Source: a virus. Taken from it: a DNA stretch of 22,328 nt. The notes beneath the pieces were generated by a model. That model made no database searches and was not told the origin of the DNA. It saw only the letters and a list, made by a program, of their open reading frames with translations. Positions 1-21,326 of the stretch are shown in pieces; position 1 is the stretch's first letter; each line of letters begins with the position of its first letter. The stretch lies in the IMG/VR virus record IMGVR_UViG_3300032050_000882, positions 1 through 22,328 of that record; one strand, 5' to 3'. The translations under genes and the position numbers were made by a program.

Positions 1-1464
1 GAAGCCCATGTCCTTGAGCGAGGCGACGTCGCCGTACCGCAGGTCGACGAACGTGTAGATCTTATCTATATCGAACGTCTTTATAGCATACTTGAGCAGC
101 TTGGAGTAACCGCCAACGACCACGGTGCTCAGCGCAGAAGCGAACCTTACTATTTTTACTTGACTGCCCTCGAACCTTAAGGAGAGCAGGACTTTTATCT
201 GATCTACGTCCTTGAGGGCCAGATACACGGAAGCGGACGCGAACCCCATGAGATGGTTGGCCTTGAGGAAGGTCTTCGCCTCCGGTGCGGTCACTTGTCT
301 TATATCAAGCTTCCTGGCATGGAGTTTATCTTTCACCGCGCCAGCCTTTACCGCTATCATAGAGTCGACGATCGACCGCTTGTAGATCACCTCGTCTGCC
401 CTGAACTGCAGGAGCCTTAAGTTAAACTCTTCTGCTTTTAGCCTTGCCTTCAGGTGGTATTTCTTGTGTAATGTTTTGTCCGAGTGCCAGTATAGACCGT
501 CGACGTTGACGTAGACGCGATCGGAGACCTTGAAGTCAGGTCTTATGTTGCATCCTTTTGCCGGGAACTTATCGAACCTTGATAACATAGGATTTGAGCT
601 CATTAGCGTTTCTATGTCGCTCATGGTAAAGTGCTCTTCGACTAGGCTGATAAAATCGCTCTCCGTAGCTGGTAGGTGCTTGGCATAGATCTTGCACACG
701 AACGAGTAGCTTATCTTGTCTGCGAAGTTGAGCTTCCATATATCTTTGATGGATCTTCCGTCTAAGCTCTTAGCTACGCCGATCTCTTGAAGTTTTCGTA
801 GCCTATCCGCTGGATCCGCCTTTGTCCTTTTAGATCTCTTTCTCTCGTTTAGTCTTAATCTTCTTTCGGCTCTGGTCTCTTCTTTCTTCTTCAAGGCCTC
901 AGGGCTAAGGAAGCGGGACCTGTTCTTGTCTATCGTCTCTGGCAGGAGCAGCGGAGTGGACACGCCGTACCGCTGGAGGTTCGTGCTCGCTATGTCGTGG
1001 TATTTTTCCTTTATCCTCTGACTCATCTTTGCCCTGAAGTCGTCTGTGGTGTGGGTCGACGCACGGCTGTCCGACAGCTTCTTAGACTTTCTTCCAGGAT
1101 GAGACTGACCGTAGAAAGCAACCTTGTACACCGGAGCCCACCACTCTCCGTGGTCTACGTCGATGAACTTGGCTTTCTTGTTGGAGGAAGAGTACGAGCT
1201 TGAGTCTATAAAAACTAGACCTTGATGGTTTGTATCGAGTGCGGCGATTATGTCCGCAAGCGATATCTTTCTTCTATTGGGGTGCTTTTGGCCGCATGTG
1301 ACCACCTTCGTAGGCGTCGCCCACCACTCTCCGTGGTCTACGTCGATGAACTTGGCTTTCTTGTTCATGCCGCAGAAGGTTGAGACGTCTATAGACACTA
1401 GGCCGCCGTGCTTCTCCAGCAGAAGCTGCCGTATCTTGTCTGGTGATGTCCTGACGTTAGACAA
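1..1464 (-). CDS. Vsr-like (EDxHD-type) homing endonuclease, 3' end cut by window edge
   Basis: This reading frame is open from a TTG start at 1464 to the left edge, 488 codons without a stop. The TTG follows AAGGGG at 6-nt spacing, and an in-frame TAA lies just upstream. The N-terminus holds two ~60-residue repeats, each with the block KKAKFIDVDHGEWWA, which I take as DNA-binding repeats of the kind found in homing endonucleases. A basic charged stretch follows (about 200-240). The catalytic region (about 310-370) reads IRPDF, VNVDGLYWHS, HKKYH, LLQFRADE, the arrangement of the Vsr-like EDxHD family typified by I-Bth0305I. Downstream, KTFLKANHLMGF, VVVGGYSKLLKY and FVDLRYGDVASL match the accessory domain often attached to this family. 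The gene lies two genes downstream of a broken terminase with half an intein, where this enzyme family is known in fractured genes. Family assignment is from recalled motifs; catalytic residues are not proven. Confidence 0.8.
   Translation of the reverse strand, partial: MSNVRTSPDKIRQLLLEKHGGLVSIDVSTFCGMNKKAKFIDVDHGEWWATPTKVVTCGQKHPNRRKISLADIIAALDTNHQGLVFIDSSSYSSSNKKAKFIDVDHGEWWAPVYKVAFYGQSHPGRKSKKLSDSRASTHTTDDFRAKMSQRIKEKYHDIASTNLQRYGVSTPLLLPETIDKNRSRFLSPEALKKKEETRAERRLRLNERKRSKRTKADPADRLRKLQEIGVAKSLDGRSIKDIWKLNFADKISYSFVCKIYAKHLPATESDFISLVEEHFTMSDIETLMSSNPMLSRFDKFPAKGCNIRPDFKVSDRVYVNVDGLYWHSDKTLHKKYHLKARLKAEEFNLRLLQFRADEVIYKRSIVDSMIAVKAGAVKDKLHARKLDIRQVTAPEAKTFLKANHLMGFASASVYLALKDVDQIKVLLSLRFEGSQVKIVRFASALSTVVVGGYSKLLKYAIKTFDIDKIYTFVDLRYGDVASLKDMGF
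1136..1182. repeat. 47-bp direct repeat, copy 1
   Basis: This stretch is identical base for base to 1319-1365. It encodes the second KKAKFIDVDHGEWWA block of the Vsr-like endonuclease. The flanking parts of the two protein repeats have diverged, so identity is confined to this core. Confidence 0.95.
1319..1365. repeat. 47-bp direct repeat, copy 2
   Basis: Identical to 1136-1182 at an offset of 183 bp (61 codons, in frame). It encodes the first KKAKFIDVDHGEWWA block of the same gene. Confidence 0.95.
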
Positions 1465-1488
1465 TATAATCCCCTTAGTGCCATAGGG

Positions 1489-1494
1489 ATTATA
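1489..1494 (-). promoter_or_regulatory. Candidate -10 box upstream of the Vsr-like endonuclease
   Basis: TATAAT on the minus strand, 24 nt before the proposed TTG start, in the short gap 1465-1547. It is framed as GGGTATAATCCC, which adds small dyad symmetry. No TTGACA-like -35 is seen at 16-18 bp. The gap also contains a run of eight A on the coding strand just after the HNH stop. Promoter activity is inferred only from the hexamer and its position. Confidence 0.35.
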
Positions 1495-1547
1495 CCCGAT
1501 ATTTATCAATTAGCCTTGATTACGGTGCATTTTTTTTACAAAGCAGC

Positions 1548-2345
1548 TCATGGACCAATCCACCCCCTTCCCAGAAGCCTACTGCACGATGCTATTGCTT
1601 GCTCCGTAGCAGTGTCACGCTTTGCGAAGTTCTCGTCTTTCCACATCGGGCTAAGGTTGGTGTAGTGCTGCAGCTTTATGAGCTCTTCTTCGTTCTGAGC
1701 CTGAGAACAAGGACATATGTGGTCGATGTGCCAGCTACCAAAGTTGTCCCACGACATCCCCGGCTGGAACAAGGACTCCAGGTGTCTTCTAACTCCCTCT
1801 ATGTTGAGCCCCAACAGCTTCTCGGCCTTGTCGTTCTTCTTGTAGCGCCTGTTGATCGAGTTGGTTATCCTCACCCTTATGCCGCGCACGAAAGCCGTTT
1901 CTGGATCGAATATCTTCCAGTGTGAAAAACAAAGTTTATGCTTGAAGGCATTGTTGTCGCATGAAGCATGGGAGCATTTCTTTTTAGGTTGCCTAATTCG
2001 CCACGCTTGATAATGCGTGCCACATAAGCCTTTTTTCTCAACCTTCTTTGTGCACCCAGAAATTGAGCACTCTGGGGCCTGTTTTAGTTTGTTGGCGTTG
2101 TAGTGCACAGAACAAAGCCCGTTGTGCTTTGCATTTTCTTTGCAGTCATATTCGGAGCATCTAGGTCGAGTTGCAAATCTATCTTTATCGTAATGGGACC
2201 TACACATGCCCCTGCGAAAGATAGAGGAACCACACTTGGTGCAGCCTTTATCTAGGCGGCATTCCTTGCACGTCGTGTAGACATTCTTGTAGAGAGGCTT
2301 CTGGCAGGATTCACAGTAGTCGGCTTTACGCTTTAACTTCTGCAT
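1548..2345 (-). CDS. Zinc-finger HNH homing endonuclease in the terminase break
   Basis: This 265-residue protein starts at ATG 2345 and overlaps the last 20 nt of the truncated terminase gene. The frame stays open up to 2468, but that extension (serine/threonine/proline-rich) is a shadow of the intein half and is not included. The first ~145 residues contain about five Cys-rich modules, several of the form C-x4-C-x(7-8)-GLC-x2-HY. The C-terminal part carries the HNH core: WHIDHICPCSQ, TNLSPMW, DENFAKRD. HNH nucleases of this type are typical free-standing phage homing endonucleases. No strong ribosome binding site precedes the ATG, so translation may be coupled to the upstream frame. It likely promotes spread of the broken terminase locus. 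Family is confident; the target site is unknown. Confidence 0.85.
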   Translation of the reverse strand: MQKLKRKADYCESCQKPLYKNVYTTCKECRLDKGCTKCGSSIFRRGMCRSHYDKDRFATRPRCSEYDCKENAKHNGLCSVHYNANKLKQAPECSISGCTKKVEKKGLCGTHYQAWRIRQPKKKCSHASCDNNAFKHKLCFSHWKIFDPETAFVRGIRVRITNSINRRYKKNDKAEKLLGLNIEGVRRHLESLFQPGMSWDNFGSWHIDHICPCSQAQNEEELIKLQHYTNLSPMWKDENFAKRDTATEQAIASCSRLLGRGWIGP

Positions 2346-4581
2346 GCGCTCGCGTTGAGGTGCTTTCCAAGGATGAGATCTCGTCGGCGTCGGTGAGGTG
2401 CTGAAGCTCGATCCATCCGCGCTGGGTCCAGACTTTGTGGTCGAGGGTTCCTTCGATGACTCTTCCATCTTCTAGCTCTATCCTTATGCACTCGGCGTCT
2501 TCTAGCTCGTTGCCGAGGACCTCGACGAAGCCGGTGGTGTCTTTGATAAAATCGCCTGGCTTGAAATCTGCCAATGATCTTATTGTACCATGCACATCGG
2601 TTGACGTAGCGGAGGAAACCAGGCACGCTCGCAGCGTGCACGGGAGCACTTCAAGTGTGACTTTCTCACTCTTGATGTTGAACACTGACTTCTCCATCGT
2701 CATCTTCTCTAGGATCTTGTTCTCTTCGCTGACCTTCGGTGGGTTCACTATCGGCTTTATTCGGTCTGAAAGAAGGAATTTCTGCTGATACTCGTAGCAT
2801 CGTTTTGCCTGAGAAAGGATCGCGCCCACGTGCACCACATCGCGCTGATCGTGCATCAGCACTAGAAGCTCAGCTATGGCCATGCCGAGGGTGTTGTGGC
2901 TGATGAAGCCGTTCGACCAGTACGCGTGATCGACGTCTACTTCAAGATCGTAGAAGTAATGTTTGCCAAAGGCAACTGAATCTACGGTCTCGTAACACCC
3001 CCTCCTGACGAAGGAAAGGTAGTCGGCCCAATCATATTCCTCTAGGCGTTTCGCTAGATCTATGAAATAATCGATCTTGTAACCGTAGACATAAAGCTCC
3101 TTAGCCTTCTCGCCAGATCCCCAAAGATCTTTAGAATACTTTATATCGGAGTGGGTCTTTTTTCCCGCCTCGAGACGCCAGTATCCATTCGCGATCTCAT
3201 ACTTGTCTTTTATAAAAGATGCAAAGGGTTTCAACAATTTAGACGGATAGCGAAACTGCTCGTTCATCTTAGCGCTGTAGATCTTGAAGGCCTCGCGCTT
3301 AGAGAACAATGGCATCAAATATTCTGGTAGAGCGGTTTTATAATCGACGCAGTGATACTCCACTACGTGGTCTTTAACAAACTTAGTTGTAGAAGGCTTG
3401 CGTCGTTTTTTGTTGATGACGGCATGAACACCGAATAAATTCAAAATCTGAGCTATTTGTTTTATGAGCTCTGGATTGGCTAACGTTATCGAGTCTTTGG
3501 AGCCATCGGTCTCCATCATTCCAGATATAAAACCAGCCAGAAAACTTGGACTATGGTTCAATGTCTTCAGCTTTTTGAAATAGCAGAGTTCGCCCTCGAT
3601 AATGGAGTCGCAGTATTCTCTTAAAGCCTTGCTACAGATACCAGCTATACTGAGATTTGGCGATCTTTTGTCATATTTCACTTTTGGTTCTACGCCAAAA
3701 TGTTTGACTATAGTATCTATATATATTGCTAATTGATCTTTATCTTTTGCGGCAAAAGATATGGCATTATCAAAGCGACTAACAGAACCATCTCCGGTTA
3801 TGCAGCCAACAAGCCATCCTAGTTCGTAATCGTTAGAAGACGTGTCTACTAAGGCACCTAGTGACTCTAAGGACCTATAGATCAACTGGCCCGGAATAAG
3901 ATTTTTCATGTAGACCCAGTCGATCTTGCCGGTCTCGGGGTCAAGGGCTTGAACACGATGCTTTAAGGAACCAGTCAAAGACCATGCGCCATCTTTGGTA
4001 AGATGTTTGGTAGTAATGGTTACGCCATCTTTAATGCCTTCGTCAAAAGTTTCGACCACGGGTTTCCAGGACCAGCCGGTCCAAACTAAATCGCCAACCT
4101 TAACGTTTTGTACATATTTGGTACCACTATTGGTAATGATTACAGTATCTTGCGAAACGCACTTACCGCTGCCCCTTCCTGCAACATACAGTAATTCTTG
4201 GATATTTTGCGGATTGTTGTTGTTCGTGCATATGTCGTACACGTCCCAAACTGCATGAAAAGGAGTGGTGTCTGCATACCTGGAGACCTTGCAGTCTGGC
4301 AGGTGTAGGTTGAAGAAGTACCGGATAAAGTTCTTGAGGTCTTTCTCCGTGCGGCACGGCGTTAGCAGTATACGCTCCAGCTGCTCTGGCGTAAACTTGG
4401 ACGCGTTCTCTGAGATCTTGCGGTTTATCACCTCCTGGCGCGCAGCCTTGGTCTCCTCGATCTTCTTCTGCTTGATCTTTGGTCGGTCGATTATAGACTT
4501 ATAGTGCCCGGTGCAGTAGCCTCTGGACTTCAACGGTTTGCTGCAGCCTTCTACGGTGCATGTCCTGTTCTTACTGTCCAT
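2326..4581 (-). CDS. terL: Large terminase, N-terminal half, with one full intein and one N-terminal intein half
   Basis: The 751-residue product mixes extein and intein. Residues 1-30 form a Cys/His module (CTVEGCSKPLKSRGYCTGHY). Residues up to 140 lead to the Walker A motif YVAGRGSGK. A complete intein (141-563) interrupts it, and the extein resumes as TLGMAIAELLVLM, restoring GRGSGKT. The ATPase domain continues to LEVLPCTLRA (652), after which a second intein starts (CLVSSATSTD, 653) and the frame ends at 751. Walker B, the coupling motif and the nuclease domain are missing. The extein totals only ~229 residues; large terminases are usually 450-700. The gene follows a putative small terminase with an 11-nt overlap. 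The large-terminase call rests on Walker A, the EVLPCT motif usual just before Walker B in some phage terminases, and context. Function needs a second gene supplying the C-half. Confidence 0.85.
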   Translation of the reverse strand: MDSKNRTCTVEGCSKPLKSRGYCTGHYKSIIDRPKIKQKKIEETKAARQEVINRKISENASKFTPEQLERILLTPCRTEKDLKNFIRYFFNLHLPDCKVSRYADTTPFHAVWDVYDICTNNNNPQNIQELLYVAGRGSGKCVSQDTVIITNSGTKYVQNVKVGDLVWTGWSWKPVVETFDEGIKDGVTITTKHLTKDGAWSLTGSLKHRVQALDPETGKIDWVYMKNLIPGQLIYRSLESLGALVDTSSNDYELGWLVGCITGDGSVSRFDNAISFAAKDKDQLAIYIDTIVKHFGVEPKVKYDKRSPNLSIAGICSKALREYCDSIIEGELCYFKKLKTLNHSPSFLAGFISGMMETDGSKDSITLANPELIKQIAQILNLFGVHAVINKKRRKPSTTKFVKDHVVEYHCVDYKTALPEYLMPLFSKREAFKIYSAKMNEQFRYPSKLLKPFASFIKDKYEIANGYWRLEAGKKTHSDIKYSKDLWGSGEKAKELYVYGYKIDYFIDLAKRLEEYDWADYLSFVRRGCYETVDSVAFGKHYFYDLEVDVDHAYWSNGFISHNTLGMAIAELLVLMHDQRDVVHVGAILSQAKRCYEYQQKFLLSDRIKPIVNPPKVSEENKILEKMTMEKSVFNIKSEKVTLEVLPCTLRACLVSSATSTDVHGTIRSLADFKPGDFIKDTTGFVEVLGNELEDAECIRIELEDGRVIEGTLDHKVWTQRGWIELQHLTDADEISSLESTSTRAHAEVKA
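2329..2625 (-). other. N-terminal half of a split intein (terminase, before Walker B)
   Basis: This 99-residue segment starts with Cys (CLVSSATSTD) directly after the extein LPCTLRA. It has intein block A followed by LADFKPGDFI and block B (GTLDHKVWTQRGWIEL, then LTDADEI). The frame stops 16 residues after DADEI. That length and end point are typical of N-terminal halves of split inteins. The opening and block B recall NrdJ-1-type split inteins. No C-terminal blocks (…HN plus Cys/Ser/Thr) occur downstream within the window. The alternative is a dead intein remnant. Confidence 0.8.
2893..4161 (-). other. Complete LAGLIDADG intein in the terminase Walker A motif
   Basis: The intein is 423 residues, from Cys141 (CVSQDTVIITNSG, block A) to Asn563 (DVDHAYWSNGFISHN, blocks F and G). 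The first downstream extein residue is Thr. Block B is recognisable as SLKHRV. Two dodecapeptide motifs mark a LAGLIDADG endonuclease: LGWLVGCITGDGS (254-266) and FLAGFISGMMETDG (347-360). Both keep the acidic residue expected at the active site. Removing the intein joins GRGSGK to TLGMA and rebuilds the P-loop. The endonuclease part appears more AT-rich than the surrounding extein DNA, in keeping with later arrival. Confidence 0.92.
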
Positions 4582-5567: not shown

Positions 5568-5943
5568 ACTCAGAACTCTTCTTTAACTCCATTGATGTGG
5601 CCCATCCCGGGCCACAATACGACCGCACAAACGTCGACAGCAACTGCTGAAACTCAAGGTTTCCGTTATTGCTAAGGATACGTCTTGTTCTCCACATAGC
5701 CCATACAGAGCCTAGACTCTTGAGCTCTTGATACTTATTATAAGCTTTGACCAAGGATGGGGCCGCATACAAGACGTAGTGTACGCGCTTATTGTCTGGA
5801 TCTATCGATAGTTCCAGTGCTGTAATGTGCTTGTTGACGATGCTGCCGTACATGAAAAGCGTGTCTTTGGCGTTGTCGGTGAAGAGGCCGCTGTTCATAA
5901 GCCAGCGCTGCTGGTCTAGGTACTCGCTGGATACCGTGCTCAT
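5518..5943 (-). CDS. Hypothetical protein
   Basis: 141 residues, with an ATG start coupled to the sbcD-like stop by an ATGA overlap. The N-terminal half has an IDPDNKRVHYVLYA segment suggesting a small mixed alpha/beta core. A basic middle follows (WAMWRTRRILSNNG). The C-terminus is highly charged (SKDNDDKGKDR) and overlaps the start of the next gene. There is no signal peptide or membrane segment. I do not recognise the family. It sits between recombination and packaging genes in one transcription unit. Confidence 0.6.
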   Translation of the reverse strand: MSTVSSEYLDQQRWLMNSGLFTDNAKDTLFMYGSIVNKHITALELSIDPDNKRVHYVLYAAPSLVKAYNKYQELKSLGSVWAMWRTRRILSNNGNLEFQQLLSTFVRSYCGPGWATSMELKKSSEYEEQRSKDNDDKGKDR

Positions 5944-6932
5944 CGATCCGTCCTCGTGTAGTGTCTCAGGGTTGACTTAAGGGTGTCCCTGTCGATTCCT
6001 CCAGCGTAGACCTTGTCTACGTACTGGTCGGTCATAGTCTCGATCGTAGGAGCCGATATAGAGACCCTGGATGATCTTGCCGTGTCCGTGAACTCGGTCT
6101 TGAAGGTCACGTGGGCCACTTTCTTGAGTTCCTTGATCTCTTTGGACTCGAGCATGGCCTTGACCTCTGCCCTTGGCCCTATAAGTTTTACTATCCACAT
6201 GTCTGTCGAGTTTATGTTCATAGCAGAATCTTTGCCGACCTCGAAGTCTAGGGTCCGCCACATAGGAAAGGGTGACTCTATGAACTCCTGGGACATATCG
6301 GATATGTCTAGTATGGTGAGTCCTTTGGTCTGTCCCGCATCGCCTGCAGATAGACACATAGGCGTACCTGGGTATAGAACTCTGCCAGATCCCATCGGTC
6401 CATACTCGAGAACCTGCTTCTTGTGAATATGCCCAGATGCGACAAGGTCGCAATCCAAGACATCAGTTGAGATTCCGTCAGTAGCCGTCTTGAAGCCATA
6501 GTCTGCGCCTATGAATGTGTTGTGCGTTATCGCGACGCTGGTTGAGATCTTAGGCCAGTCTCTTGGGTCATGGACGTAGGGGACATACGTTATGCCGTCT
6601 GCCACGGTGACGACGTCGGCCACTATCAGGTTTTTACTCTCGAAAGGCTCGAGCGCGTGATACTCGCTTGAGTTGGGTTTATGCATGTCGTGGTTGCCTA
6701 GGAGAAGCACGGTCGGGATCTTGAGCTCGAGGAGACGGTCGAGATGCCTAGAGACCGTACACATCACCTCTGCTCGGATAATGGCGTGGGTGTCGAACGT
6801 GTCGCCTAGGTTTACGATCAAGTCTGGCTTCTTGGTCTCGGCGATAAACTCCACCCACTCCAGTAGGGCCTTGCCCTCTGAAAGATGGGTGTGGCGGATA
6901 TGTGGGTCGCCGATGAGCAGGATTCTAGTCAT
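5940..6932 (-). CDS. sbcD: SbcD/Mre11-type nuclease (T4 gp47-like)
   Basis: 330 residues with the full metallophosphoesterase motif series: GDPHIR (8-13), GDTFDTH (43-49), GNHD (79-82), ITHN (135-138) and SGHIHK (166-171). These bind two metals in Mre11/SbcD/gp47 nucleases. With the Rad50-like SbcC/gp46 partner the complex resects DNA ends for recombination-dependent replication. The length is close to T4 gp47. AGGAAAG precedes the ATG, lying just after the stop of the 45-residue ORF. The 3' end overlaps the next gene as ATGA. Its likely partner is encoded 12.6 kb upstream in transcription order (19578-21326). Confidence 0.92.
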   Translation of the reverse strand: MTRILLIGDPHIRHTHLSEGKALLEWVEFIAETKKPDLIVNLGDTFDTHAIIRAEVMCTVSRHLDRLLELKIPTVLLLGNHDMHKPNSSEYHALEPFESKNLIVADVVTVADGITYVPYVHDPRDWPKISTSVAITHNTFIGADYGFKTATDGISTDVLDCDLVASGHIHKKQVLEYGPMGSGRVLYPGTPMCLSAGDAGQTKGLTILDISDMSQEFIESPFPMWRTLDFEVGKDSAMNINSTDMWIVKLIGPRAEVKAMLESKEIKELKKVAHVTFKTEFTDTARSSRVSISAPTIETMTDQYVDKVYAGGIDRDTLKSTLRHYTRTDR

Positions 6933-7240: not shown

Positions 7241-8325
7241 ACGTCGTCTTCCACAAACCCAGACGAGTCGATCTCGACCTTGGCGTCCTGATGCTCGTAG
7301 CAGGCACTTAGGATACGGTTCTGGAGATCTTTGTCCCCTATCACCATGTTCTTGATGTTCTGCTCGCCGCGAACCGGTGCCTCGTTTGCGAAGCACCACA
7401 TCTGCGGGTTCTCTCTGCCTGTGTCTGGGTTTGTAGGATGCTTGATGACACCCAATGCTTTAGCGAGCTCGAAGATCTCGCCTCCCGTGTCGATGACGCC
7501 TAGGTCGTAGTGGAACGTGAACTCTGCCTGGCGAGCAGGCGCGCCCATCCGGTTCTTCTTCACCTTTACGCGAACCTTGTGGCCTACTTGAGCCGCTGCG
7601 CCGGTTATGGTCTCGCCTGACTCGATCACGCCCTTCTTAGAGTCAACGCGTGTGATCTCAAGCATAAGATCTGCCGCGTGCTTGAGCGCGTGGCCTTCTG
7701 AGATGACGTACGGGTTGCGCAGTGCCTTCATCGGGTCCATTTGCGCCGTAACTTGTTGAATAAACAGGGTTAATAGTTTATGTTCTGCAACTACGGGGAC
7801 CACGAGTTTCAACGCAGAGCCGAGGTACTGGGATCCACTACCACCCATAATTTGGTCAGTGGTCTGCTTGCGTACGTCCTTAGGATATCTGATCGACTTA
7901 ATCGAATCGATCACAATGGCCTTGATCGGTGCGCCATCCTGAATCAGCTCAAGCATCTCACCGCCGATATAGTCGAAGATCTTAACCGGATCGTTTGATT
8001 TCCTTACGACAAGACGATCTGCGTCGCCGCCTAGTTTGATGAACATCTGTGAATTGAAGGAGTACTCGGCATCAAACCAGATCGCTAAAGCCTCTTTATC
8101 AAGCCTCTGAAGCTCGATCAGCGCCATCATAGCGAGCATCGATTTTCCAGAGCTCTCTGGACCATATAAAATATTCACTTTGCCTGGGATAAAGCCGCCT
8201 TGGCACGTGGCCCAATTTAAAGACGGAGACCAAGTAGGAATAGCCGAGGGTGTTTGAGATCTTAACTTAGATACAGCAACGCCTATATCGCTTGTTAGTT
8301 TAGACATCCATTTGTTTGTCGACAT
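7237..8325 (-). CDS. uvsX: RecA/UvsX-family recombinase
   Basis: 362 residues. Walker A is GPESSGKS (55-62), with a RecA-like FDAEYSF (84-90) that includes the catalytic-type Glu. Walker B is AIVIDSI (136-142), and QQVTAQMDP (190-198) corresponds to the RecA sensor/L2 region. The family forms ATP-dependent filaments on single-stranded DNA and catalyses strand exchange; in phages it drives recombination-dependent replication. The C-terminus is acidic (GFVEDDV), as in RecA-like proteins. AAGGAG at 8333-8338 fixes the start at ATG 8325. That start and its ribosome binding site lie inside the 3' end of an upstream homing endonuclease gene. SSB and SbcC/D-like proteins are encoded nearby and are expected partners. 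Confidence 0.93.
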   Translation of the reverse strand: MSTNKWMSKLTSDIGVAVSKLRSQTPSAIPTWSPSLNWATCQGGFIPGKVNILYGPESSGKSMLAMMALIELQRLDKEALAIWFDAEYSFNSQMFIKLGGDADRLVVRKSNDPVKIFDYIGGEMLELIQDGAPIKAIVIDSIKSIRYPKDVRKQTTDQIMGGSGSQYLGSALKLVVPVVAEHKLLTLFIQQVTAQMDPMKALRNPYVISEGHALKHAADLMLEITRVDSKKGVIESGETITGAAAQVGHKVRVKVKKNRMGAPARQAEFTFHYDLGVIDTGGEIFELAKALGVIKHPTNPDTGRENPQMWCFANEAPVRGEQNIKNMVIGDKDLQNRILSACYEHQDAKVEIDSSGFVEDDV

Positions 8326-8983
8326 TTTTATGCTCCTTAAATTCTAAATATTGCTCTTTGGTGTTTAAGATCTTCTTATTTCTTTGCGTTCTACCGTGTC
8401 TGACATGAAATTCTTTATGGCATGTTTCGCAAAGACATACCAGATTGCTTAACTCGTTCAAAAGGTGAGGATGATTTGCATAATCGTATAGATGATGAGC
8501 ATTCAATGCCACACCTCTTTTAGAGCAACAATCACAAGTATAGTCTGCTAACTCAAAACACTGCTTACGAAGTTTAATATCAAACTGCTGTTTTCTAACG
8601 GCTTCCTGCTTCCAGCCAAAGTCATCAAACTCATCTAGTGATATTCCACGAACCTTGCAACTAATCTTTATCTTTGTTTCTTCTGAGACGCTCTGTCCCT
8701 TGTTAGGGGGAGACTTTCCTAGATTTGCTTTGCGAAGCTTTTGCTTCATATCTTCACTCATTGGCTTGCCCTTGTTGGTAGGGACTCTACCAATTGAAGC
8801 TAGACCAACCACTTTATCTCTGCATTTTTTACATGGCCTATCAGCAGAAGAAATATCACTCATCTTAGAGTAGACAATATATCCCCTATCTAAACCACAT
8901 TTATCACAATAGTGTCTGTAGAGCTTTTGTCTTTTGCCGCTATTTTGAATCCTTATTTGAAAATCTGTTTTATCCACAGACAC
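8300..8983 (-). CDS. NUMOD3-HNH free-standing homing endonuclease
   Basis: 227 residues. The N-terminus has two Cys pairs (YCDKCG, PCKKC) that could bind zinc. Two NUMOD3-type DNA-binding motifs follow (NKGKPMSEDMKQKLRKANLG and NKGQSVSEETKIKIS). The C-terminal HNH domain has YTCDCCSKRGVAL, NAHHLYDY, LSNLVCLCETCHKEFH. It starts at GTG 8983, shortly after the stop of the preceding gene, with AAAGGA upstream. Its last 26 nt overlap the uvsX start. The region looks more AT-rich than its neighbours, consistent with a mobile insertion between two host-phage genes. Such enzymes normally cleave a nearby site in phages lacking the gene. Confidence 0.9.
   Translation of the reverse strand: MSVDKTDFQIRIQNSGKRQKLYRHYCDKCGLDRGYIVYSKMSDISSADRPCKKCRDKVVGLASIGRVPTNKGKPMSEDMKQKLRKANLGKSPPNKGQSVSEETKIKISCKVRGISLDEFDDFGWKQEAVRKQQFDIKLRKQCFELADYTCDCCSKRGVALNAHHLYDYANHPHLLNELSNLVCLCETCHKEFHVRHGRTQRNKKILNTKEQYLEFKEHKNVDKQMDV
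8333..8338 (-). promoter_or_regulatory. Ribosome binding site of uvsX, inside the HNH gene
   Basis: AAGGAG at 7-nt spacing from ATG 8325. The bases are also codons of the HNH endonuclease C-terminus (…EFKEHKN), so the inserted gene retains a working start region for uvsX. Confidence 0.8.
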
Positions 8984-10564: not shown

Positions 10565-10570
10565 ATTATA
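10565..10570 (-). promoter_or_regulatory. Candidate -10 box for the SSB gene
   Basis: TATAAT on the minus strand in the 57-bp gap between the upstream gene's stop and the SSB start. No clear TTGACA is found 16-18 bp upstream. It is followed by a leader of about 40 nt with TAGGAG before the ATG. Separate expression of an SSB is expected because it is needed in large amounts. Confidence 0.4.
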
Positions 10571-10578
10571 CATCCAAT

Positions 10579-11330: not shown

Positions 11331-14300
11331 CTACAGGGTCTTCTTGCTTCTGGTGTCGTTTCTCTCTACCTTCTCGATCTCGAGTATCTCGAGCGTTGGT
11401 GAGCCTCTCCATCCGCGCTTCAGGTTGCCCATGACGTAGACCAGCGAGTCTACTGGAAAGCGAAAGGCTTTCTTCTGGTCCCACTTGATGCACTCCATGG
11501 TCGATAGACCGTCAGACAGAACCACTCTGACTCTAGACCACTGTCTTCCGCTCTTGGAGACGCCTTCCGCATGCTCCGAGGACTGATACAGTCCTATCAT
11601 CGCGACCCTTACGTTATGGCCGTTTTCTGAGGACTCGCTCGACGCCACAAGCTTCTCGGCCACACTGACAGACGCTATGACAGGGACTGCTGGCGATGTA
11701 CCGAACGCCAGCGGTATGTCTTTTCGCTTGGTCTCTCGCATCGCCGGCCACATGTCCGAGATCTGGTTTCTTATATACTGATCGTCGAGCACGGCCTTGT
11801 TGAAGCACTTGTAGACCTCACGCTGGTTGAGGAAGATGTTCAACGGCGAGACGTCTACCACGTCGTCTGGGATCTTCTTGATCTTCTTTAGCTTTGTGTA
11901 GTGCGACAGAAAACGCTCCCTAGCTTCTGCTATTGACTCGGTTTCGTTGGCGAGCTCGTCGAAAACGCCTGCCTTAAACAGAGCCCAGAAGTGAGACGAG
12001 TTTATGGGTCCGTTGGTCTTGGCAACGAAGTCCTCGAAGGAGGAGAACGGACCCTTGTCGATTATGTTCCTGATACTCGCTGGACCTAGACCTTTGACTG
12101 TCGACAGCGGAGCCGCGATCCTGTTTCCGACTATGGTGAATCTGTCGGCTGGATTTCTAACAGACGGCGGTATGATCGTGTTGCCGAGGATGGAAACGTA
12201 GTGGCGGATCTTTTCCTCGCCTGAGTTGTTGAGCTCTGCTGTCCACCACTCTAGAGGAAAGTTTCGTTTCAGATACATCGTTATGTAGCCAAGGTGTCCG
12301 TAGGCGGCCGAATGAGATCTGTTGAAACTGTAGTTCGAGTACGCTTCTAGAACCTTACACAGCTCTTCTGCCTGCTGAAGCGTCCAGCCATGCTTTGAGG
12401 TTTCAGTCCTAACTTTATCAAACGCCTTTGTCATCACATCGCGCTTCTTCTTAGCGATGGCCGACCGTATCTGGTCTGATTCTTCCAGCGTGTATCCGCA
12501 GAATTTAACCAAGATCTCCATTAGTTGCTCTTGGTAAGTGACTACGCCGTTGGTTTCCTCGAGGATCTCTTTGAGATCTTCGTGAACGTATTCCGGCTCG
12601 CGGGCTCCGTTCCTGACATCTATGTAGAACTGCGTTGCCGACACACCAGGGATAAATTCTACGTCCAACGCACCAGGGCGACACAGCGCCGTAAGGTCGG
12701 CAAGATCTTTTCGACACACCGGAGCAAACTGCTTGATGTAGCTCTTGATGAGGTCTGTGTTGAACTGAAACGAAGAGTCGGTCTTGCGCTTATAGAAGTC
12801 CTCGTACACGCCTGGATCTTCCGGCAGGCGATAGAGCATCTGAACGCCTTTGTCGTCTTCCTCGAGAAGATCGATGCCTGTGTTTGTTTTCACGAGATCT
12901 ACCACTCGTTCGATGGTCTTGATGGTCGTGAGACCTAGTATGTCTGCCTTCACTAGGCCTGACTTCTCGACCATCGGAGCCTCAAACTGGGTCACCGGCA
13001 CAGGACCAAGTTCCTCGTCGTCGAACACCATGGTCGGCACGCGCGTCTGCGAGATGTCTAAGGTCGATATCACGAAAGCAGAAGCGTGTCGACCCATACC
13101 CTTGGGAAGACCGATCAATCGCTTGGTGATGTACTCGATCTCTGGGTATTGCCTGAAGAAGCTCTGAAGCGTCTCGTTCGTCTCGAGATGGCCTCTGTGA
13201 TATACGCCCTCTGAGTCTACGTATCCGTACAAAAAGTCGGCCTCGTCTAAGCCCTGCGGCGAGTCTGGTATCGTCGAGCATATATCCATGACCTCTTTGT
13301 CGGTGCGGCTCCTACCGAATATAGCGAACATGGCATCCTTGAGCGCGTTCTTGGTCTTGAACCTCTGAAACGTGCCGATCTGCGCGAAGCCTACGCCGTA
13401 CTTCTCTTGAAGGTACTTGAGCACCGGAGACCTGTTGCCGAGGTCCAGGTCGATGTCAGGAAATGATCCTGCGTTGATACGGGCGTGGCTTAGAAACCGC
13501 TCGAAAGGCAGCTTTTCTTCTATGGGGTTTACGTGTATGATCTTCAGATAGTACGAGATCAGACACCCACCGGCGGAACCACGAGCCAGGTTCTGTAGTA
13601 TGCCTTTTGCCCTGGCAAACGCGCAGATATCCTCGTACATCAAGAAGTACGGCAGGAAGTTGAGCTTAGGGTTCTTCCATATGACCTCGAGCTCTTTCTT
13701 GAAGCGCGCGACGTAGACCGGATCGTCTGACCATCTACCGTGCTCTTTGACCTTTGCCATAAGAAGAAAGTAGAGCTGCTTGTCGTAGTCGTCGGTCTTG
13801 TCTAGTATGGATTGCGGAATCTCTATCTTAGGCAAGTGATATTCGTGCTTTATGTTGATTGTCTTAGATCTCTCTACTATCTTCATAGCGTTAGATCTTG
13901 CTTTTTCAACGACGTCTAGGCTCATCCAGTCTCCAAGATGGCGCTTGAGTATGGCATACTGCTCGTCCATGGACCTTTGATGCCTAGACTCGTAGAAGAA
14001 GCGCTTGTCCTTGAACGACGACTTAGAGACGACGTCCTGCAGCACCTTGTCGTCGGGCGATATGAAATTAGCCGTAGAAGATATGATAAAGTCGTAGCCG
14101 TGAGAGTCTATCAGACCTGATATAGTGCGATTGACGAGCTCCGTTAGGTTTGGCACGTCTTGATAGGACCTGAAGCCGATGCCTTTGCTGAAGTATTTTG
14201 TGACGTCTACTGGGATCAGCTCTAGGACCAGAGATCCGAGCTTTCGCCTGACCTCTTTTACGTAGCCCTCAAGATCGATAGAAGCATCAAGCAGAAGCTT

Positions 14301-15357: not shown

Positions 15358-15382
15358 CCGATGGCTGTTCCATCGGATTATA
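15358..15382 (-). promoter_or_regulatory. TATAAT box abutting a perfect inverted repeat before the polymerase gene
   Basis: On the minus strand, TATAAT (15377-15382) is followed at once by CCGATGG-AACAG-CCATCGG (15358-15376), a perfect 7-bp inverted repeat with a 5-nt spacer. The repeat ends inside the ribosome binding region GGAGAAG of the polymerase gene. Transcripts reading through from upstream would form a hairpin that pairs part of the ribosome binding site. Transcripts starting from this box would begin inside the repeat. It could be a repressor operator or an RNA hairpin for translational control; both are inferred. Confidence 0.5.
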
Positions 15383-15385
15383 CGA

Positions 15386-17996: not shown

Positions 17997-18040
17997 ATTA
18001 TACGCCATGGGCAGATTAGGTGGGCAGTTAGGCATGCCCA
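17997..18040 (-). promoter_or_regulatory. Promoter-like region with tandem 12/13-bp repeat in the 17965-18122 gap
   Basis: This lies in the longest gene-free stretch (158 bp). TATAAT at 17997-18002 lies 33 nt before the ATG of the putative virion gene. Directly upstream are two tandem repeats, TGGGCAGATTAGG (18008-18020) and TGGGCAGTTAGG (18021-18032), written on the plus strand, followed by an inverted TGCCCA (18035-18040). The repeats occupy the -35 region, where no TTGACA is seen. They could bind an activator or repressor. Upstream of them are further dyads (GCTGA-AATGTA-TCAGC). No ORF or tRNA is seen. Confidence 0.4.
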
Positions 18041-19577: not shown

Positions 19578-21326
19578 TTATGATACCATTGTTATGCCGC
19601 TTTTCTTCACGACGCTTATTGACTTATCAAACATCGCCTTTGCCTCAGCAGCGTGATCAATCACTATTATACAGCGATCCTTTGCCATCTCCTGAAGAAG
19701 TTCCACGATCTTTGTGCGGTTAGAGGCATCGAGGTGGTCAAAAGGTTCGTCTAATATCAATGGGTTAAGATCTGCTCCGGTATACGACGACACTACGCTG
19801 AGTATGGCAAAGTCTATAGCAATAGACAGACATTTCCTCTCGCCGCCTGACAGTGACCCTATAGTTCGCTTGATGCCGTCTACCACGAAGCTGTCGGACA
19901 TCTTAGTCGTAACCTTGCCGGACTTATTTTCCTTGAAGGACAACAGCTCGTACGAGGAGCTCGGCCACACGACCTGGATTATGTCGTGTATCCTGTCGTT
20001 TATGCCTTGAACCACAGAGTCCATGACGTACGCTGGAACGCCCAGCGGGGACAGGATCATAGACCCTGTCTGAAGGAGCTCGATCCTTGCCTTTCTCTCG
20101 TCGAGCTTCTCTGAGAGCTTTAGGATCTCGCGCGAGATGTGCTGTATCTTTTCAGACACTATAGACTGCTTGTCTAAAGAAGCCTGCATCATCTGCATCC
20201 TTATCTCAGACTGCTTAACGAAAGCCTTAAGCTCTGCGATCCTGTTGCTCACGGACCTGTTATCTCTTTCTCTGTCTTTTATGGTCTGCCTGACGCTGTC
20301 GAGAGCGTCTGATATCTGCTGCTCTTTCGAGATCTTAGACTCTATGTCCTTGATGCTCGACACGATGTCTTCTCGCCGCTTGTCGTACGCGGCCTTTCTT
20401 TCGTCGGCCTTGGCCTTAAGCGAAACTTTGTCGTGCTTGACGAACCTACCGTCAACGACGTCTATGTCCACCCCGCAGCACGGGCACTCTCCGTCAGGAG
20501 AGAGGCTCTCTTCTGGTGCGGTCATGTCCTTAAGCATCTTCTTGTAGACGTTTAATCTGCCCTTGTTGACCGATATCTCGTTGAGCTTGTTCGTGAGCTT
20601 TCCCATGGTGTCTTGATATCTGTAGTCTTCTTCGTCGTCGATCTGAGACTCTAGATCAGACACCTTGGCACTCGACTCTAGCACAGATTCTTTTATGCGC
20701 TGCATCTCTGTCTCGCAGGCGCTCTCGTCTATGAGGCTCTCCTGGTAAGCAGAGACCTTTGCTCGAAGGTTAGAGATCTCGTTCGTCATCCTTAAGACCT
20801 CTGCGTTCTTGTCCTTAAGCTCTGAGTCAAGCTTTGACTTCGCGTCTGCGAAACCGTCGGCTCTCATGAGCTCCAGGATAAGGTCCTTGCGGCCTGAGTC
20901 ATTCAGCTCTAGGAACCTTAGTCCTCCTGTCTGACATGCATACTGAGCGATCACGAACTGCTGGTAGTTTATGGGCAGAAGCTTGAGATACTCTTCCTCC
21001 ATGAGTATGGCACCGTCAAGGGTGGCTTTGAAGCCCTTGGGTCTGCTTCGCTCGACCTCTATCTTGCCGTACTGAGTATGGATGGCGACGCAGACCCTAG
21101 ACTGCTTCGAGCCTATTCGCACGAACTCTGACACGGTCGTTGACCTTGGGAACTGGTTGAATATGCCCCAGGCAAGCGCCTCGAATATGGCGGTCTTGCC
21201 TGCGCCGTTTGCAGAGTTTGTGTCGTGGTTCCAGCCTTCTACGAGAACAAGACCGCTCTCGGGAAAGTCGATATGCGCGTGCTCGATCGACAGTATGTTC
21301 TCGATCGTCAGCGATGATATGCGCAT
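19578..21326 (-). CDS. sbcC: SbcC/Rad50-type ATPase (T4 gp46-like)
   Basis: 582 residues from ATG 21326, with AGAGG 6 nt upstream; GTG 21329 is one codon longer. Walker A is NSANGAGKT (37-45), followed by the Rad50-like Q-loop region (YQQFVIAQYACQTGG). Two coiled-coil arms flank a zinc hook CPCC near residue 280. The ABC signature is SLSGGERK (near 490), Walker B is PLILDEPFDHLD (near 520), and an IVIDHA H-loop follows. The length matches phage gp46 rather than the ~1050-residue bacterial SbcC. It would pair with the SbcD-like nuclease to process DNA ends. Upstream it is coupled to the zinc-ribbon gene. Confidence 0.93.
   Translation of the reverse strand: MRISSLTIENILSIEHAHIDFPESGLVLVEGWNHDTNSANGAGKTAIFEALAWGIFNQFPRSTTVSEFVRIGSKQSRVCVAIHTQYGKIEVERSRPKGFKATLDGAILMEEEYLKLLPINYQQFVIAQYACQTGGLRFLELNDSGRKDLILELMRADGFADAKSKLDSELKDKNAEVLRMTNEISNLRAKVSAYQESLIDESACETEMQRIKESVLESSAKVSDLESQIDDEEDYRYQDTMGKLTNKLNEISVNKGRLNVYKKMLKDMTAPEESLSPDGECPCCGVDIDVVDGRFVKHDKVSLKAKADERKAAYDKRREDIVSSIKDIESKISKEQQISDALDSVRQTIKDRERDNRSVSNRIAELKAFVKQSEIRMQMMQASLDKQSIVSEKIQHISREILKLSEKLDERKARIELLQTGSMILSPLGVPAYVMDSVVQGINDRIHDIIQVVWPSSSYELLSFKENKSGKVTTKMSDSFVVDGIKRTIGSLSGGERKCLSIAIDFAILSVVSSYTGADLNPLILDEPFDHLDASNRTKIVELLQEMAKDRCIIVIDHAAEAKAMFDKSISVVKKSGITMVS

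Follow-up and report, generated by a model that had tools for sequence, protein, structure and literature searches.

The subject of this work is the gene for the large terminase subunit (terL) carried by a single phage record, IMG/VR IMGVR_UViG_3300032050_000882, whose whole stretch of 22,328 bases is called here the window. In this gene, a split intein interrupts the coding sequence and other genes occupy the break, so arranged that TerL is very probably made as two proteins joined by split-intein trans-splicing, the split intein and the break genes together forming one mobile unit. The sequences document both halves of the gene, exact empty sites in relatives, conserved catalytic residues, purifying selection, a patchy distribution of the split state and a linked divergence of the two intein halves. 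According to the mechanism we propose, the N-half protein would carry the Walker A part and the N-intein, and the C-half protein the C-intein together with Walker B and the nuclease. Once associated, the two intein halves would ligate the exteins at ...CTLRA/CNGPHVPLVVVDEID, and two cis-inteins, one in Walker A and one at FVKK/C in the C-half, would also be spliced out to give a 694-residue terminase. The endonucleases encoded in the break (here an HNH/EndoVII-like and an EDxHD enzyme) would cut empty terL alleles, and repair would then copy the whole unit, split intein plus break genes, into the cut terL.

The terL-N frame lies on the minus strand at 2326-4581 and encodes 751 residues. The first part of the N-extein (4162..4581, 140 residues) has a zinc-finger-like N-terminus and ends at the Walker A motif GRGSGK, within the stretch LLYVAGRGSGK. 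It is followed by a complete cis-intein of 423 residues inserted in Walker A (2893..4161, GRGSGK/C...HN/T), which contains a LAGLIDADG endonuclease (LAGLIDADG_3, E 1.4e-9) and scores 20.8 bits with intein_Cterm, above the cut-off; relatives such as those at loci L007 and L024 have the same Walker A site without this intein. The second part of the N-extein (2626..2892, 89 residues) ends in EVLPCTLRA, and in empty-site relatives the stretch matching it runs uninterrupted into NGPHVPLVVVDEID. In the window, the N-half of the split intein (2329..2625, 99 residues) starts at PCTLRA/CLVSS with Cys1, contains blocks A and B and then meets a TAA stop. Its score with NCBIfam intein_Nterm (E 7.7e-5, 23.6 bits) is just below the 24.5 cut-off. 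A preliminary description made from the window had seen the terL frame end 99 residues into an intein at LPCTLRA/CLVSS, after blocks A and B, and had found no C-intein, Walker B or terminase nuclease within the window; both observations hold. Regarding inteins in TerL, it had recognised the split one and missed the complete intein in Walker A, as well as another in the C-half.

The same description had placed the C-half to the left of position 1, as a frame made of a C-intein, Walker B and an RNase H-fold nuclease, and this is where and how it was found. Viral contigs were scanned with the terL/N-intein piece, which gave 44 loci; L038-L044 (weak N-intein match, 25%) and, from later in the locus numbering, L136-L148 (without this TerL) were set aside. 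The whole break is present in five contigs of the window type (L001-L005), which originate from differently numbered metagenomes, have both halves on each and are 99.78-99.99% identical to the window over the overlap. L003 differs from the window at 1 position in 12,892 bases; its position 12,892 corresponds to window position 1, and its C-half starts at 13,080, that is 188 bases beyond position 1 and on the same strand. The C-half reads MAKVTKIERTGIKQIAKLEV...DGTINHN/CNGPHVPLVVVDEID, with a C-intein of 44 residues ending HN/C, then Walker B and, at the C-terminal end, an RNase H-like nuclease (Terminase_3C, E 4e-6 for L007, above the cut-off, and E 4.3e-4 for L003, below it). It also contains a third intein of 378 residues (FVKK/CFSDD...SGN/C, L003:13875-15008; LAGLIDADG_3, E 4.2e-6). 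Besides the split intein, TerL holds in this way two complete inteins, each present or absent independently among relatives. Without the three inteins, 229 + 465 = 694 residues are left, and the uninterrupted relative L024 has an open frame of 698 residues, with matches to several PHROG families of terminase large subunits (the best at E 1e-21).

Among loci L001-L037, 20 are split, 16 are empty and contiguous, and one (L019) ends before the break. Within L001-L021, each of the 20 loci extending beyond the break has an N-half ending in an N-intein and a C-half starting with a C-intein, and in L022-L037 (16 loci) terL is uninterrupted as PCT(L/M)(K/R)A/(L/V)NGPHVP. Many more distant relatives read PCTLKA/CNGPHVP, with the Cys already in place, and a few have T or V instead; because CNGPHVP served as the search pattern of the scan, PCTLKA/CNGPHVP says nothing on frequency. 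From L001-L116, in which some entries are the same contig twice, 101 loci had both halves readable and 15 were dropped, yielding 63 distinct TerL exteins. These comprise 14 split types, 48 with an empty site and one (L103) with another, unsplit intein, counts which reflect the matches listed by the scans and are not a census. The same split intein in one piece was not seen among the retrieved loci. The intein of L103 (L103:4387-7506) is contiguous and unrelated-looking, has 398 residues and a LAGLIDADG_2 domain, occupies the same terL site and ends LQ/C, not HN/C. Single-protein scans for further split types returned only empty sites, known types and one locus (L173) ending at the site. An N-side alignment scan of bacterial and archaeal genomes gave 160 pattern matches, none of them confirmed, and a C-intein alignment scan gave nothing useful, the C-intein being too little conserved. 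Furthermore, a comparison with 50,697 phage records revealed no close isolate: the window N-half matches 33 of them, none at 60% identity or above, and the best named-phage match of the intact TerL of L024 is Myxococcus phage Mx1 (30% identity over 80%).

Several features of the intein halves point to their being functional. All 12 N-inteins aligned have Cys1 and the block B His, and all 13 C-inteins aligned have the last Asn and Cys+1; 11 of these 13 also have His before the Asn. The split is at the canonical position, with N parts of 84-108 residues in 13 of the 14 types (L061 is irregular) and C parts of 39-44 residues. In the 12 types computed, net charge ranges from -4 to -13 for N-inteins and from 0 to +4 for C-inteins, figures that stand without a control set. 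The ratio of nonsynonymous to synonymous differences (pN/pS) is below 1 in all 11 chosen pairs, with 0.20-0.50 for the N-intein, 0.05-0.73 for the C-intein and 0.03-0.31 for the exteins, values that are rough because synonymous sites are near saturation; they indicate that both intein halves are under purifying selection. When compared with the PDB, the C-intein profile retrieves first a 36-residue chain, 4lx3_B (E 0.011), which we take to be a DnaE split C-intein. A profile of the 12 N-intein types, the window's included, finds gp41-1 first (6qaz, E 3.2e-5) and NrdJ-1 next (E 0.002), two inteins listed as coming from metagenomic data (PMC11766414).

A tree of the 63 exteins requires 7 changes of the split state, and well-supported branches force at least 6 of these; shuffled labels need 12.8 on average and none of 500 shuffles is as low as 7. 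The split state is thus clustered, but was gained or lost several times. Raw distances among 13 types correlate with r 0.88 for N-intein and extein, 0.86 for C-intein and extein, and 0.87 for N- and C-intein. After removal of the extein distance, N- and C-intein distances correlate among nine close types (r 0.74, 0 of 5000 permutations as high), in the same comparison with a near copy left out (r 0.75, 5 of 5000) and in 13 types without L061 (r 0.43, 9 of 5000). These correlations indicate that the intein halves diverge together beyond what extein divergence explains. As individual cases, L003 and L017 have in common 97% of the compared C-extein residues and just 63% and 59% of those of the intein halves, and for L003 and L007 the values are 89% for the C-extein and 77% and 93% for the intein halves. 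Inteins of types with a common break gene, according to labels that we assigned, are more alike than extein distance predicts (116 of 5000 permutations in 8 close types; 4 of 5000 as extreme in 12 of the 14 types, L016 and L061 being left out). Taken with the linked divergence of the halves, this association suggests that the halves move for the most part as a single unit with the genes they enclose.

What lies between the halves varies. An endonuclease is encoded in the break of 11 of the 14 split types, that of L061 being fused to the N-half, and none was recognised in L010, L017 and L062. The window type has the HNH/EndoVII-like and EDxHD pair, the two free-standing genes already noticed in the preliminary description. 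L006 combines an HNH gene related to the window's with a different, oppositely oriented EDxHD gene, L007 has only an HNH gene, L008, L015, L016 and L067 have only an EDxHD gene, and so does L021, on the opposite strand. L063 has only another EndoVII-like gene (phrog_1035, E 1.1e-20), and L066 an HNH gene with another homing-endonuclease-like gene (phrog_3339, E 1.9e-20). In the irregular L061, an HNH sequence 45% identical to the window's follows the first intein residues as an in-frame fusion, the remainder of the N-intein forms a separate open reading frame (ORF), and the C-half follows. This apparent three-piece intein spans L061:4098-6135; its N-intein remainder (ORF 5586-6005) is 45% identical to the L066 N-intein over 78 residues, and its C-intein also occurs in L064.

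In the types where no endonuclease was recognised, other genes are present: a DNA polymerase X-like (PolX-like) gene in L010 and L017 (PF14791 thumb, E 1.8e-8 and 3.7e-12; PF14792 palm), next to a gene without Pfam or PHROGs matches, and a trypsin-like protease gene in L062 (PF13365, E 1.7e-6). The PolX-like and family-less genes occur in 3 of 16 records and nowhere else in them, those three (two of one type) having been picked for their break contents; a distant relative of the L062 protease (30% identity) is present in 1 other of the 16. Between L010 and L017, the PolX-like proteins are 55% identical and the family-less partner proteins 40%. On the extein tree these two types stand apart, L010 adjoining L007 (HNH) and L017 adjoining the window type, so that closely related TerL types can keep the split and yet have different genes in the break. 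One may go further and regard the terL break as a lasting cargo slot, in which the split intein keeps the gene in two and the contents are exchanged; endonucleases would come and go, other genes (PolX-like plus partner, trypsin-like protease) would replace them in some lineages, and the split intein would persist without a resident endonuclease. To this wider proposal we give an even chance.

Four other explanations of the broken gene have to be weighed. An assembly chimera or a sequencing error could have broken a continuous terL in silico, since the window, a metagenomic piece of 22 kb, stops within the break. However, the five contigs, whose metagenomes are differently numbered, all have both halves with that same stop, so that the continuous frame across 2326 that the preliminary description had allowed for is not what these contigs have. 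Moreover, thirteen other split types are broken at the same site (L061 irregularly) with varying break contents, and in each of the 13 types studied for this, L061 not among them, 1-66 in-frame stops, the N-half's own stop counted, close its frame before the C-half. The five contigs and the 13 other split types exclude chance and misassembly, and an artefact appears extremely improbable. The gene could also have been inactivated by endonuclease insertions and be decaying, with an intact copy elsewhere, a case for which one can cite the two mobile endonucleases in the gap and the possibly fragmentary nature of the records. Against it, the C-extein and the second N-extein stretch were each found at one place only in all eight split-type records searched, records that may be fragments, where the preliminary description had envisaged an intact second terL; the C-extein is likewise single in three empty-site records. 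Since the exteins and both intein halves appear to be under purifying selection and the splicing residues are kept in the aligned types, we judge decay very unlikely.

Precedents are at hand for a joining of the halves at the RNA level, by a group I/II intron in cis or in trans: the terL of ICP1 is RNA-spliced (PMC10448857), and mirusvirus TerL undergoes trans-splicing of RNA close to Walker B (PMC12768974). Here, on the other hand, Rfam searches were negative for the window (E up to 1) and for 11 related loci (gathering thresholds), and conserved intein halves lie on both sides, the removal of which gives an uninterrupted protein, so that RNA joining has a probability as slight as that of decay. 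The split NrdA of phage Aeh1 works as two chains, and the terminase could likewise be a two-chain enzyme without protein splicing. PMC10448857 cites the case of a reductase whose gene is interrupted by an endonuclease gene and which functions as two peptides, and splicing of the present TerL rests on what we infer from sequence. The intein halves, however, keep their splicing residues and diverge as a pair, and a two-chain enzyme would not need these features; we therefore hold this explanation to be unlikely.

Trans-splicing of TerL from a mobile split intein is in our view the best explanation, and a number of points count against it. Trans-splicing itself, cleavage and homing are deduced steps, and the two halves could in principle work unspliced. 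Two C-intein types are without the usual His before Asn (Ala in L060, Lys in L067), and intein 3 of the C-half ends SGN/C. Uncorrected intein distances follow extein distances closely, and thus vertical descent explains much of the divergence. Several rows of the tree are on long branches with uncertain placement, and L061 and L066 are possibly joined falsely. To these may be added the roughness of the pN/pS values and the possibly fragmentary records, which make an unseen second terL conceivable.

Concerning the break genes of the window, the first encodes an HNH/EndoVII-like zinc-finger endonuclease (1548..~2345, minus strand; phrog_5351, E 1.3e-7). It matches PHROG HNH families, and its distant relatives (26-46% identity) include proteins annotated endonuclease VII; F-CphI is a characterised homing endonuclease of the EndoVII type (PMC6083498). 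The HNH reading frame extends without a stop as far back as an ATG at 2468, so that about 140 bases (2326-2468) overlap the N-intein region in another frame, and a similar overlap exists in L006, L007 and L066. Residues 4-53 of the TerL N-terminus (window 4423-4572) also match phrog_5351, annotated HNH endonuclease (E 2.6e-6); this zinc-finger-like module is common to TerL and the break HNH gene, and is present in the empty-site TerL of L024 as well.

The second break gene (1..1509, minus strand, cut by the window edge) encodes a putative EDxHD (Hef-like, Vsr-fold) homing endonuclease matching phrog_3339, 'homing endonuclease', with E 1.8e-34. It is complete in L003:11384-13084, where it encodes 567 residues and overlaps the C-half start by 8 bases, and distant relatives of the protein are annotated 'Hef-like homing endonuclease'. 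A structural model of the nuclease domain (predicted local distance difference test score, pLDDT, 79.4; predicted template modelling score, pTM, 0.72) has as its top two PDB matches the chains of 3r3p, the catalytic domain of I-Bth0305I (template modelling score 0.60-0.63, probability 0.99, E 0.03-0.04). No PDB match reached E 0.001 or better with this model, and a sequence search of the PDB with the EDxHD protein found nothing. The break gene product is accordingly predicted, at weak E-values, to have a Vsr-like catalytic fold as in I-Bth0305I, which is an EDxHD enzyme (PMC3943268), in agreement with the family to which it had first been assigned. The N-terminal part of the protein has two repeats around KAKFIDVDHGEWWA, which recall, by description, the CapR-like repeats of intron-borne EDxHD/Vsr relatives (PMC12350094). 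Its C-terminal part has the highest prediction confidence in the full model (pLDDT 88-96 in averages over 10 residues, at residues 381-510) and resembles GNAT acetyltransferases, to which the majority of the 45 PDB matches with E not above 0.001 belong (top 9mto, E 5e-6).

Near the start of the EDxHD gene lies a promoter-like GTATAAT (1489..1495, minus strand), a consensus match only, which precedes the gene only if translation begins downstream of the TTG at 1509. The motif occurs five times in the window, always on the coding strand (1489-1495, 10565-10571, 15377-15383, 17997-18003 and 19666-19672); shuffled windows contain it 1.19 times on average, and 1 of 100 shuffles reaches 5. Three copies are located 27-44 bases ahead of listed ORF starts (10521, 15350 and 17964). 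In L006, L007 and L017, GTATAAT or GTATAAC stands 28-58 bases before the C-half start, and the C-half may thus have its own promoter. Elsewhere in the window, a free-standing NUMOD3/HNH endonuclease gene (8300-8983) lies beside a RecA-like gene, and the HNH part of the former scores 32.8 bits with the IscB model (E 4e-8), against a cut-off of 175.

The interest of this family lies in its sampling: 14 split types, 48 empty alleles and one other intein among those retrieved allow the life cycle of a split intein to be read through gain, endonuclease change, possible endonuclease loss and replacement by cargo. How split inteins arise and why they persist becomes testable, and about a dozen candidate canonical split inteins become available for protein ligation. 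An essential phage motor very probably needs protein trans-splicing and, if the cargo slot is real, genes in the packaging-motor locus would be inherited along with an essential self-rejoining protein. The preliminary description was right in what it observed and, as the evidence supports, largely right in how it interpreted it.

The kind of system is already known, since split TerL inteins and fractured genes exist. Dassa and colleagues reportedly described in 2009 'fractured genes', with split inteins and free-standing EDxHD endonucleases between the halves. In those cases the host gene is, reportedly, likewise split inside an intein, with a free-standing EDxHD-family endonuclease in between and uninterrupted homologues, whereas here terL is the host gene and break contents vary among relatives. 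A TerL depending on a split intein is less unusual than the preliminary description had held: AceL-TerL, GOS-TerL and Cat-TerL are known TerL split inteins with reported trans-splicing rates (PMC11766414). These are atypically split, with N parts of 25-37 and C parts of 104-115 residues according to the same source, in contrast to the lengths found here (N 84-108, C 39-44). The PolB gene of Pseudomonas phage MIJ3 offers another phage case, in which a split intein divides the coding sequence around an inserted HNH gene (PMC6892783); the host gene there is that of DNA polymerase B, one phage is concerned, and an alternation of break contents is not described in the portion of that account available to us. 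The TerL of mirusviruses and alloherpesviruses is likewise interrupted near Walker B, and its two parts, encoded apart, are brought together again, but these are eukaryotic viruses and the joining is spliceosomal, at the RNA level, as shown for mirusviruses and hypothesised for alloherpesviruses (PMC12768974). In the literature searched, part of it accessible only as partial text, no description was found of a split-intein break alternating among endonuclease families and other genes, which is not proof of absence. Apparently new are two features of a TerL that also has two cis-inteins: an intein split at the canonical place and, more importantly, a gap with exchangeable contents.
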